This document shows, piece by piece, positions 16,598 through 54,079 of a DNA stretch of 64,000 nt; within the stretch, counting starts at the first letter, position 1; the number at the start of each line of letters is the position of its first letter. A program made the translations under genes and the position numbers. The stretch is taken from contig NZ_SNUU01000001.1 in assembly GCF_012027645.1 (NCBI RefSeq), forward strand, positions 1,488,001-1,552,000, read 5' to 3'. Source of the stretch: Thermococcus sp. 18S1. Its GTDB lineage: Archaea; Methanobacteriota_B; Thermococci; Thermococcales; Thermococcaceae. Under the pieces are notes generated by a model. The model was not told the DNA's origin and made no database searches. It saw only the letters and a list, made by a program, of their open reading frames with translations.

Positions 16598-17200
16598 ATG
16601 GCAAAAGTTAACCCAAGGAAGAAGGCTGCCGCTACCAAGGATAAGTGGAAGAGCAAGGAGTGGTATATAGTTTACGCTCCGGACTTCTTCGGGAGCAAGG
16701 AGATAGGCCTTACCCCGGCCGACGAGCCGGAGAAGGTCATAGGAAGGGTCATCGAGACCACCCTCAAGGACCTCACCGGCGACTTCACCAAGGGCCAGGT
16801 CAAGCTCTACTTCCAGGTCTACGACGTCAAGGGCCAGAACGCCTACACCAAGTTCAAGGGCCACACCCTCTCGAGGAGCTACATAAGGAGCCTCGTCAGG
16901 AGGAGAACCACCCGCGTTGACGGTATCTACAACGTCACCACCAAGGACGGCTACAAGCTCCGCGTCATGGGCATGGTCATCGCCTACCGCAGGATTCAGA
17001 CCAGCCAGGAGAGGGCCATAAGGGAGATCATCAGGGACATCATCTACAAGAAGGCCGAGGAGCTTAACTACAAGGACTTCGTTCTTGAGGCCGTCAGCGG
17101 CAAGATGGCCGCCGAGATGGCCAAGGAAGCCAGGAAGATCTACCCGATCAAGAGGGCCGAGATCAGGAAGATCAAGGTTCTCGCCGAGCCGGAGGCCTGA
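16598..17200 (+). CDS. rps3ae: 30S ribosomal protein S3Ae
   Basis: 200 residues, archaeal/eukaryotic S1e/S3Ae family, a small-subunit protein absent from bacteria. Signature stretches: [19 protein letters not shown] near the start, then [20 protein letters not shown] and [19 protein letters not shown]. Start ATG 16598 follows GTGGAGGTGTTAAG. It is the last gene of the S15-GAN-Pcc1-S3Ae run, separated from pcc1 by 15 nt. Confidence 0.97.
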
Positions 17201-17287
17201 TGGCCTCTCAATTCTCTATTCTCCGATCTTCTGCCGCTTCCCACATGCTTTTAAATACCCCCGCGAGTGTTCTCTGGGGGTGAGGGT

Positions 17288-18343
17288 GTGAAGTTTCTCG
17301 TGAAGACCCAGAAGGGTATGGAGGGTGTTGCGGCCAATTATATAAGGGAAGCACTTCCGGACGCGGAGATATGGATCTCCCCAATGGGCTACTACGGACT
17401 CGTCATCGTGGAGACTGAGGACGAGAACGCGGGCGAGGTGATGCTCGGCATTCCCGAGATCGAGAGGGTCATTCCCGTTCTCGCGGAGGTTCCGGCCGAG
17501 CTCGAGAGGATCGTTGAGACCGCCGAGAAGGTGGCCCCGCTCATAGGGGAAAACGAGACCTTCGCGGTGAAGACGAAGAGGCGCGGAAAGCACGGGTTCT
17601 CAAGCATCGACGTCAACAGGGAACTCGGGGCAAAGGTGCGCGAGCTCACGGGCGCCGACGTGAACCTCAGCTGGCCGGACAAGGTTGTTCGGGTCGAGAT
17701 AATCGGAGACAGGGCATACGTTTCGGTTCTTCCGGGAGAGGAGTTCAGGAAGTTCACTCCCGACAAGAAGGACGCAAGGGAGCTCTTCCGCAAGGTCACC
17801 GTGGTTCAGATGCCGTACTGGGGAGGTCTTAAGGTCTGCCGCTCTTTCGGGGAGAAGATCGGAAGGGCCGCCCAGGCCTTTGAGGTGAAGGAGCTCATAA
17901 TAGCCCCGAAGGGAAAGATGGATGCCCTCGAGCTGGCCGAGTTCATCAAGGGGGTCAGAGTTGGTCAGGAGAGCAGGCACAGAATACAGCGTGAGAGCTA
18001 TCCCTGGAAGGTTGAGAAGGTTCCCGTCAGCGTGTGGGACCTTTACCAGGTGGTTCGCGACAAAAGGAGGGACAAAAGGCTCCTCATAATAACGGACCCC
18101 AAAGGCCCAACCGTGGCGCAGGTTGGAGAGAAACTTGCGCGCGACATGTTCCACGCGAAGGAGGTTGTCGTGTTCATCGGGTCCCGTGAGGGTATCCCGA
18201 GGGGCCTCTTCAGGTTCGCGGATTACGTGATCGATCTTGCCCCGTACATGACCTTCGCCACAGAGCACGGCATTCCTGCGGCACTCGTGTCCCTCTGGGA
18301 GGTTTACGAGGAATACGCGCGGGAGAGGGAGGGAAAAACCTGA
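17288..18343 (+). CDS. THUMP/SPOUT family RNA methyltransferase
   Basis: 351 residues. The N-terminal part (KFLVKTQKGMEGVAANYI through LSWPDKVVRVEIIGD) is a THUMP-type RNA-binding region; the C-terminal half (DPKGPTVAQ, VVFIGSREGIPRGL, ATEHGIPAALVSL) has the knotted SPOUT methyltransferase motifs, using S-adenosylmethionine to methylate tRNA or rRNA. The exact target base is not shown by the sequence. Start is GTG 17288 after GGGGTGAG, with TATA box CTTTTAAATA about 30-40 nt upstream, so the leader is short. Confidence 0.88.
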   Translation: MKFLVKTQKGMEGVAANYIREALPDAEIWISPMGYYGLVIVETEDENAGEVMLGIPEIERVIPVLAEVPAELERIVETAEKVAPLIGENETFAVKTKRRGKHGFSSIDVNRELGAKVRELTGADVNLSWPDKVVRVEIIGDRAYVSVLPGEEFRKFTPDKKDARELFRKVTVVQMPYWGGLKVCRSFGEKIGRAAQAFEVKELIIAPKGKMDALELAEFIKGVRVGQESRHRIQRESYPWKVEKVPVSVWDLYQVVRDKRRDKRLLIITDPKGPTVAQVGEKLARDMFHAKEVVVFIGSREGIPRGLFRFADYVIDLAPYMTFATEHGIPAALVSLWEVYEEYAREREGKT

Positions 18344-18387: not shown

Positions 18388-18446
18388 GGCGTCAGACCCT
18401 AAGGTCGTCCTCACCGCTCGGGAATCCGCCGTAGTCATCATCCGCC
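18388..18446 (-). ncRNA. C/D box guide sRNA
   Basis: Read on the minus strand: GGCG stem, box C ATGATGA (18435-18441), a 13-nt guide, box D' CCGA, box C' TGAGGA, a 12-nt guide ending CCTTAGGGT, box D CTGA (18392-18395) and CGCC closing the terminal stem. A TATA box (GATTTTAAAACC, 18467-18476 region) lies exactly 25 nt before the GGCG, so it has its own promoter, overlapping the end of the DUF92 gene. The D guide can pair with the conserved 23S segment CCTAAGGT in helix 71, pointing to 2'-O-methylation at the base matching E. coli U1939; this target is inferred. Confidence 0.82.
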
Positions 18447-18477
18447 AGGGGAGAATTCCCTTGGAGGTTTTAAAATC

Positions 18478-21465: not shown

Positions 21466-21534
21466 GAATCAGCGAAGCGAAGACTCCTCATCGCGGCTGG
21501 GGCACCGCTCGGGTGTCCTCGGCTTCATCACTCT
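21466..21534 (-). ncRNA. Candidate C/D box guide sRNA in the ridA leader
   Basis: On the minus strand: box C GTGATGA (21525-21531), a 12-nt guide, box D' CCGA, a short GCGG/CCGC hairpin spacer, box C' TGAGGA, a 12-nt guide and box D CTGA (21469-21472). The variant D' and C' boxes are the same as in the sRNA at 18388. No TATA box of its own is evident, and the end stem is weak, so it may be processed from the DUF2666-ridA transcript or be a chance match. Confidence 0.5.
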
Positions 21535-21542
21535 CCTCGGGT

Positions 21543-34309: not shown

Positions 34310-34391
34310 AAATAACCACCGATTATGCCGGCTTCTCAGAAACTAACTCCCGCCCTCCCGGTTATAAGCCTTCCTCAGAAGTGCATCGAAT

Positions 34392-34549
34392 TGTGGGCCG
34401 GGTACAGAGGCCCGCGTTCATTCGCTCGCGCGGGTGGATGCTCCCGGCCCTGTGGGCTCGGCGTGAGCACACTCCGCTCACAGAACCCGATACCTCGCGG
34501 AGGCGGGTAAACCGAGCCCATGAGGAGACGATTGTCCCCTCACTGTCGG
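34392..34549 (-). ncRNA. H/ACA box guide sRNA with two guide hairpins
   Basis: Minus strand. Two stable stems are each followed directly by ACA: arms at 34512-34519/34454-34461 with ACA at 34451-34453, and arms at 34443-34450/34395-34402 with ACA at 34392-34394. The second unit is textbook: 8-bp lower stem, two 8-nt pocket strands (AGCATCCA and CCTCTGTA), 6-bp upper stem and a GA/TGA K-loop. The first has a CTCCGC/GCGGAG upper stem capped by GA and TGA. A 9-bp hairpin (34521-34542) precedes them and is fully paired only on this strand, through G-U. A TATA box (TTTTTAAGG, about 34572-34579) fits a start near 34550. It directs pseudouridylation of rRNA; targets not assigned. Confidence 0.78.
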
Positions 34550-34587
34550 CGATTGGTTCTACGACTCACACCTTAAAAACCTGAGCC

Positions 34588-35546: not shown

Positions 35547-35609
35547 GGACGGATGATGACCTCGGCATATCTGACGTCAGGATGATGACGATCTTGAGTG
35601 CTGATTTGT
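35547..35609 (+). ncRNA. C/D box guide sRNA
   Basis: Box C ATGATGA (35553-35559), an 11-nt guide CCTCGGCATAT, box D' CTGA (35571-35574), box C' ATGATGA (35582-35588), a 12-nt guide CGATCTTGAGTG and box D CTGA (35601-35604). All four boxes match the archaeal consensus exactly. A TATA box (GTTATTAA, 35523-35530) lies about 25 nt before the expected 5' end. By the D+5 rule the methylated bases would be the G in ATATG and the C ending CACTC of the complementary targets; which rRNA or tRNA sites these are I cannot tell. It lies between convergent gene ends. Confidence 0.85.
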
Positions 35610-41617: not shown

Positions 41618-41657
41618 GATCTCACCGGAAGAAGTTCGACAAAGGGGTTAAAAATGT

Positions 41658-41813
41658 GGGCTCGGCCCATCTCCATCCCTCATCGGCGGCCGGACGGCGT
41701 CCTCCGGTGGTCCGGAGGGCGAGCCCTGTCCGCCCGGCATCGTCGCACCCGCTCATCGCTGGCACCGCACCGGCTCCCGGGACCGGGCCACCGGGCGTCG
41801 TCGGATGCTCGTA
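41658..41813 (-). ncRNA. GC-rich structured RNA candidate (H/ACA-like ends)
   Basis: About 155 bases of very GC-rich, ORF-free DNA between AT-rich flanks. On the minus strand a TATA box (CCTTAAAATT, about 41833-41842) fits a start near 41813. Two long-range stems occur: CGCCCGG/CCGGGCG followed by GACA, and GGGCTCG/CGAGCCC followed by ACA just before the translin TATA box. ACA after a stem recalls H/ACA RNA, but I could not fold proper guide pockets, so the class is open. Confidence 0.5.
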
Positions 41814-52815: not shown

Positions 52816-53580
52816 TTGCTCAAATACGTTGGCTACTTTGCGGTTGGAGTATTCATCGGCATCCTTGCGGCCCTATTTGGTCTCGGAGGTGGATTCCTGA
52901 TAGTCCCAACGCTGAACTTCCTCGGCGTCGAGATACACCACGCCGTCGGAACCTCCAGTGCGGCCGTCGTCTTTACCTCCCTCAGCTCGGCGATAGCGTA
53001 CTCAAGACAGAAGAGAATACACTACAAGGTCGGCCTTCTGCTGGCTTCAACGGCCGTAGTTGGTGCATACATCGGCGCGTGGATGACCTCCTTTATAAGT
53101 GCCGCCCAGCTGAAGGTCATCTTCGGTCTCGCACTCGTTATAGTCGCCGTCAGGATATACCGTAAGAAAACCGCAGAGCCGAGTGAGGTTAAGCTTGAGG
53201 AAGTTGAGGTCAACTACAAGCTCGTCCCCATAGGTGGATTCTTCGCAGGAATAGCGAGCGGTCTCCTCGGCGTCGGTGGGGGAATAATCAACGTGCCCTT
53301 CCTGACGTACCTCGGCCTGCCCATACACTACGCGGTAGCTACTTCAAGCTTTGCGATAGTCTTCACCGCAACCGCTGGGGCGCTCAAGCACTACGCCATG
53401 GGCAACGTGGAGACCCAGTGGCTGGTCCTCCTCGTTCCAGGCCTCATCATCGGTGCCCAGCTCGGTGCGAGGATAGCGAAGAGGACGAGGGCGAGCAGCC
53501 TTAAGAAGGCCTTCGCGGTCGTCATGGCCCTCTTGGCTCTGAGGATGATACTGAAGGGCCTCGGCCTTCCGATTCCGTGA
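52816..53580 (+). CDS. TauE/SafE family sulfite/anion exporter-like protein
   Basis: 254 residues, about eight membrane helices in two repeats, each with the Gly-rich motif (FGLGGGFLIVPTL and LGVGGGIINVPFL) and GTSS/ATSS. The family exports sulfite, sulfoacetate or other sulfur compounds. Start is TTG 52816, supported by GGAGGTGATTCC. The last 59 bases overlap the tail of the convergent membrane protein gene. Confidence 0.9.
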   Translation: MLKYVGYFAVGVFIGILAALFGLGGGFLIVPTLNFLGVEIHHAVGTSSAAVVFTSLSSAIAYSRQKRIHYKVGLLLASTAVVGAYIGAWMTSFISAAQLKVIFGLALVIVAVRIYRKKTAEPSEVKLEEVEVNYKLVPIGGFFAGIASGLLGVGGGIINVPFLTYLGLPIHYAVATSSFAIVFTATAGALKHYAMGNVETQWLVLLVPGLIIGAQLGARIAKRTRASSLKKAFAVVMALLALRMILKGLGLPIP

Positions 53581-54079
53581 GTTCTTCTCTCCTTCTTTCC
53601 TTCAGATAAGCCGCCCCAAGGAGGAGCGTTGCAACCATCATGACCAGCCATGCAATCACCAGAGGCCTGTCGTAGGGATAGTAGAGCTCTCCGGTGATGG
53701 CGTGGGGGATGGAGATTGGGGTTGACATCACTGCCAAGATTAACGCCAAGATGCTGCCGACCACGAACTCCGGGAAGGAGTGGGTGATTCCCATTTCTGA
53801 AAAGGCGATATTGTCAGCGGTTAGGCCGATATACCCCACGGCTCCCAGCAGAATCACTGTCACTGCAGGATGGATAGGATTCAGATTTCCCTTCCTCCAT
53901 CTGTGAAGTCCAAGGACGAGAACCACGAGCAGTCCCCCAAAGCTTGCCTCCATCCACGTGGCAAGATCCTTGTAGAACCCGTAGGGAGCGTCCCAGTTGG
54001 CGAAGGCTATTGCACCCGGCTGGGTGAGGACGAAGACAAGTGTCACCATGAGCCAGAACCTGAGCTCTGCGGCATTCAC
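53522..54079 (-). CDS. Polytopic membrane protein of unknown function
   Basis: 185 residues with five membrane helices (FWLMVTLVFVLTQPGAIA, FGGLLVVLVLGLHRW and others) and a polar Ser/Glu/Arg tail. GTG start 54079 follows GGTGATGGG. The tail's codons overlap the 3' end of the TauE gene on the other strand by 59 bases. It sits between two TauE genes. No family recognised. Confidence 0.65.
   Translation of the reverse strand: MNAAELRFWLMVTLVFVLTQPGAIAFANWDAPYGFYKDLATWMEASFGGLLVVLVLGLHRWRKGNLNPIHPAVTVILLGAVGYIGLTADNIAFSEMGITHSFPEFVVGSILALILAVMSTPISIPHAITGELYYPYDRPLVIAWLVMMVATLLLGAAYLKERRREELTESEGRGPSVSSSEPRGP

Follow-up and report, generated by a model that had tools for sequence, protein, structure and literature searches.

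The 59-nt element at positions 18388–18446 of the window (the whole 64 kb stretch of DNA analysed here) raises the question of which RNA it serves, and at which nucleotides. The preliminary description had presented it as a C/D box sRNA guiding methylation of 23S rRNA in helix 71. The class and the 23S rRNA as target are supported; the site within the 23S rRNA is corrected below.

The coordinates first given proved exact, and the element can now be assigned to the minus strand, which had not been specified; an sRNA on the plus strand is ruled out, the Rfam matches and the box layout both being confined to the minus strand. From 18446 to 18388 it reads, 5′ to 3′, GGCG-G-ATGATGA-CTACGGCGGATTC-CCGA-GCG-GTGAGGA-CGACCTTAGGGT-CTGA-CGCC. 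The boxes and end stem are present as described. The stem, formed by GGCG (18443–18446) and CGCC (18388–18391) beside boxes C and D, varies in distant relatives and is weaker in some. The C box ATGATGA (18435–18441) fits the RUGAUGA consensus and is nearly invariant in an alignment of 17 homologs; the C′ box GTGAGGA (18408–18414) is RUGAUGA-like, and distant relatives have GTGATGA. The D box CTGA (18392–18395) is invariant in the same alignment. The D′ box CCGA (18418–18421) is one base off CTGA, the form found in several relatives, and its register is kept in nearly all homologs, for example L024 and L041–L043. The boxes follow the order C, D′, C′, D, with the GA/AG residues of the k-turn present, and the guides, 13 and 12 nt long (12 + 12 in several relatives), are close to the usual length of about 12 nt each. 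This strict layout occurs at two places in the window against 0.0 expected, none being found in 40 Markov shuffles. Judged by its sequence, the element is an ordinary, canonical archaeal double-guide C/D box sRNA.

Each guide has a single full-length match in the organism's own 16S and 23S rRNAs, and a scan of the 16S rRNA found no full-pairing site for either. The D guide CGACCTTAGGGT (18396–18407) pairs with 23S positions 2376–2387 (GCCCTAAGGTCG) at 12 of 12 nucleotides, with one G–U pair, and the D′ guide CTACGGCGGATTC (18422–18434) pairs with positions 2403–2415 (GAATCCGCCGTAG) at 13 of 13, all Watson–Crick. The duplex energies are −21.2 kcal/mol for the D guide (next-best rRNA site −15.9) and −23.1 kcal/mol for the D′ guide (next-best −18.7). 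Shuffled guides matched equally well in 54 of 20,000 cases for D and 16 of 20,000 for D′; no shuffled pair among the 20,000 had the two matches 60 nt or less apart. According to the ‘N plus five’ rule for the methylated position (PMC4644070), the predicted sites are U2380 for the D guide and C2407 for the D′ guide, and both +5 positions form Watson–Crick pairs (A–U2380 and G–C2407). These nucleotides align with E. coli 2286 and 2313, 27 nt apart in domain V. In the Rfam archaeal LSU model, the segment paired by the D guide (E. coli 2282–2293) takes in a junction together with the 5′ strand of a multibranch helix of six pairs; inside that helix lies a hairpin whose loop and 3′ strand form the D′ target (E. 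coli 2309–2321). The order of guides and targets is the one to be expected if both duplexes form at once: the D′ guide is the 5′ one in the sRNA, and its target is the 3′ one in the rRNA. The helices of the D and D′ targets are presumably H82 and H84 in E. coli nomenclature.

The sRNA is conserved across the Thermococcales. A 67-nt DNA query has matches in 65 of 94 genomes, and about 81 of the 94, spread over all six genera, match strongly (E below 1e-7) a sequence model built from the 17 aligned homologs; a search with this model of 115 genomes of the phylum, at E ≤ 0.001, returned no match outside these six genera. Within the alignment, the guide cores GGCGGA and GACCTTAGG, the latter belonging to the D guide, do not vary and the boxes hardly do, while the end stem, the D′–C′ spacer and the flanks are variable. 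Nearly all aligned homologs place U2380 and C2407 at +5 of the D and D′ guides; one homolog (L036) has a D′ guide 1 nt shorter, and D+2 is mismatched in three (L042, L046 and L047). Both targets fall in the 23S stretch CCCTAAGGTCGGCTCAGGCGGGTCAGGAATCCGCC, which has the same sequence in every member of the Thermococcales in which the pattern could be located; consequently, no compensatory change is observable, and this invariance fits guides that do not drift.

Near-perfect complementarity makes it most likely that the sRNA directs two ribose methylations, of U2380 and C2407. It would be bound by L7Ae, Nop5 and fibrillarin and would pair with the two domain V segments, for which complementarity and conservation were observed; the D guide on 2376–2387 would then direct 2′-O-methylation of U2380, and the D′ guide on 2403–2415 that of C2407. 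Pairing of the guides would also keep both strands open and may aid ordered folding. A stronger form of this idea, in which the sRNA is chiefly a folding chaperone for the two segments and methylation is secondary, or absent at one site, accords with the masking by both guides of strands that belong to nested helices and lie 27 nt apart, and with chaperone roles proposed for such double guides (PMC4644070). It is nevertheless unlikely, since the +5 position of each guide is in a Watson–Crick pair and the registers of the boxes are kept, as they should be in methylation guides. A canonical double-guide sRNA with U2380 and C2407 as its sites is, with high confidence, the best explanation of the element.

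The original proposal placed the methylation in helix 71, on a nucleotide that would also carry the 5-methyluridine of E. coli U1939. Helix 71 has been described as a hotspot of methylation (PMC4644070), and nine contiguous pairs of the D guide are possible there, at positions 2027–2038 of the organism's own 23S rRNA; by score, this is the fourth-best 23S site for the guide. The preliminary description had itself said that better pairing elsewhere would count against helix 71, and the D guide does pair better at 2376–2387, the helix 71 duplex (−10.8 kcal/mol) being 10.4 kcal/mol weaker. All ten distinct variants of the D guide favour 2376–2387, by 5.7 to 11.9 kcal/mol. The supposedly universal sequence CCTAAGGT, with which pairing had been claimed, is bacterial; the organism's own 23S rRNA reads CTCTTAAGGTAG at that place, which leaves the D guide with mismatches at +1 and +11 and G–U wobbles at +2 and +4. 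The guide base at D+11 is always G, which pairs with C2386 at the 2376–2387 site and faces A at helix 71. The identification of the D+5 partner with U1939 also fails: m5U1939 of E. coli is located in GCGAAAUUCC, according to both the rrlB sequence and a 30-mer starting at 1932 (PMC5614603), whereas the D+5 partner at helix 71, the U of CCUAAGGU (CCUAAGG), is U1926. The notion of a 2′-O-methyl and a base methyl meeting on one nucleotide arose from this slip in numbering (U1926 for U1939) and has no basis. Methylation by the D guide of a helix 71 nucleotide bearing m5U1939 can be given hardly any credence.

Six good-quality Thermococcales genomes have no full copy of the sRNA (G035, G042, G046, G054, G056 and G078). 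In G035, the sRNA is lost and both trmTS and the 23S target are retained; the intact 23S target in some complete genomes without the sRNA, such as this one, indicates that the sRNA is dispensable there. G042 carries a truncated copy (L051/L110, G042:C3 about 53570–53595) in which the C box and the D′ guide are left and the remainder is swapped for unrelated sequence. In G046, G054 and G078, the DUF92 gene is followed directly by the apparent neighbouring ribosomal protein gene (16598–17200 in the window), and trmTS is gone too. The convergent neighbour of the sRNA in the window (17267–18343, plus strand) is an ortholog of this trmTS gene, with THUMP and SPOUT domains (PF14419), and is 78% identical to T. 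kodakarensis TK1257, which is TrmTS, the tRNA Cm6 methylase (PMC12255305). The sRNA and trmTS are lost jointly more often than expectation would have it: among good-quality genomes, PF14419 is missing from five of the six that lack the sRNA and from three of the 68 that bear it (Fisher p = 2e-5, uncorrected for phylogeny). Single deletions of adjacent genes suffice to explain the joint loss and are the simpler account; a functional link between the sRNA and this protein-only 2′-O-methylase is highly improbable.

The DUF92 membrane protein gene (PF01940; 18478–19206, minus strand) is the constant partner of the locus, lying just upstream of the sRNA in the window and, in the same orientation, ahead of it in almost all homologs whose flanks are long enough to tell. 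In the window's clade, about 35 nt separate the DUF92 stop codon from the C box, with the TATA-like box TTTTAAAA (18468–18475, minus strand) in between. The centre of this box is some 25 nt upstream of GGCG, and the TATA box claimed at this distance thus holds for this genome; a correctly spaced TATA-like box is found only in a subset of relatives and is missing in several, including T. kodakarensis. Other homologs have 5–14 nt between the DUF92 stop codon and the C box, and in L009, L011, L014, L021 and others the UGA of the C box is itself the stop codon. According to Tripp et al. 2017, as summarised in a review (PMC7994747), 25% of the genes for C/D sRNAs in archaea share sequence with the 3′ end of an ORF, the stop codon then lying mostly in the C box, and a TATA-like box accompanies only 20% of them; by these summarised figures, both states are already known. 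Here they occur together within one family of sRNA orthologs. Transcription of the sRNA in this genome probably starts at a promoter of its own; other species probably derive it from the 3′ end of the DUF92 mRNA. The overlap with the DUF92 stop codon in some species could suggest that box-like motifs have lined up by chance or that the element is no more than a 3′UTR structure of that mRNA, a reading refuted, with next to no probability left to it, by two full-length rRNA complementarities in the correct register and by guide cores kept in most of the genomes searched.

Other guide RNAs are encoded in the window. The second place with the strict layout (35553–35604, plus strand; GGACGG-ATGATGA...CTGA) is a further C/D box sRNA, with sub-threshold Rfam matches to snoPyro_CD (26.1 bits) and sR5 (21.9 bits). 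Neither of its guides has a strong rRNA match, and a tRNA or other target is possible. The C/D sRNA sR45 is found above the Rfam threshold at 21467–21535 (minus strand), and its D guide pairs with 23S rRNA at about 2157–2168 (−18.1 kcal/mol). Two H/ACA guide RNAs, HgcF (34381–34550) and HgcE (41639–41764), both on the minus strand, also exceed the Rfam threshold.

The T. kodakarensis copy of the sRNA under study lies at 1100953–1101011 on the minus strand, in a genome (G024) whose 23S position fits T. kodakarensis KOD1 and which carries the reverse-primer site for TK1257 (PMC12255305). By position this copy belongs after Tko-sR33 (1053770) and before Tko-sR35 (1103625) of the published list (numbering of Jager et al. 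2014), and it may be the already named Tko-sR34, judging from list order only. This copy is absent from a published table of circular C/D sRNAs (PMC9014305), in which only 26 of 61 C/D sRNAs had circular reads. A literature search with the guide sequences gave only unrelated papers among the matches listed, and the available part of the main text of the P. abyssi ncRNA paper holds no information on this sRNA. Membership of the Rfam families sR23 (RF01138; 22.7 bits, gathering score 45) and sR32 (RF01119; 19.0 bits, gathering score 40) was rejected, both scores being below threshold and probably due to the common boxes; sR14 and sR9 were rejected as well, as it is mainly the boxes that align in the matches obtained with distant relatives.

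The analysis gives a corrected target for a guide RNA that is conserved across the Thermococcales, and names two precise 23S positions. If both sites are methylated, this would be one more double guide acting on a nearby pair in domain V; the finding alters no concept. Compared with the archaeal C/D box sRNAs known from P. abyssi (59) and T. kodakarensis (61), the element differs in having CCGA as its D′ box and in being covered by no Rfam family at threshold. It has in common with them the order and spacing of the boxes, the size, the end stem and the short C′/D′ spacer. Other shared traits are two nearby rRNA targets and placement at an ORF's 3′ end, and nothing fundamental sets it apart from them.
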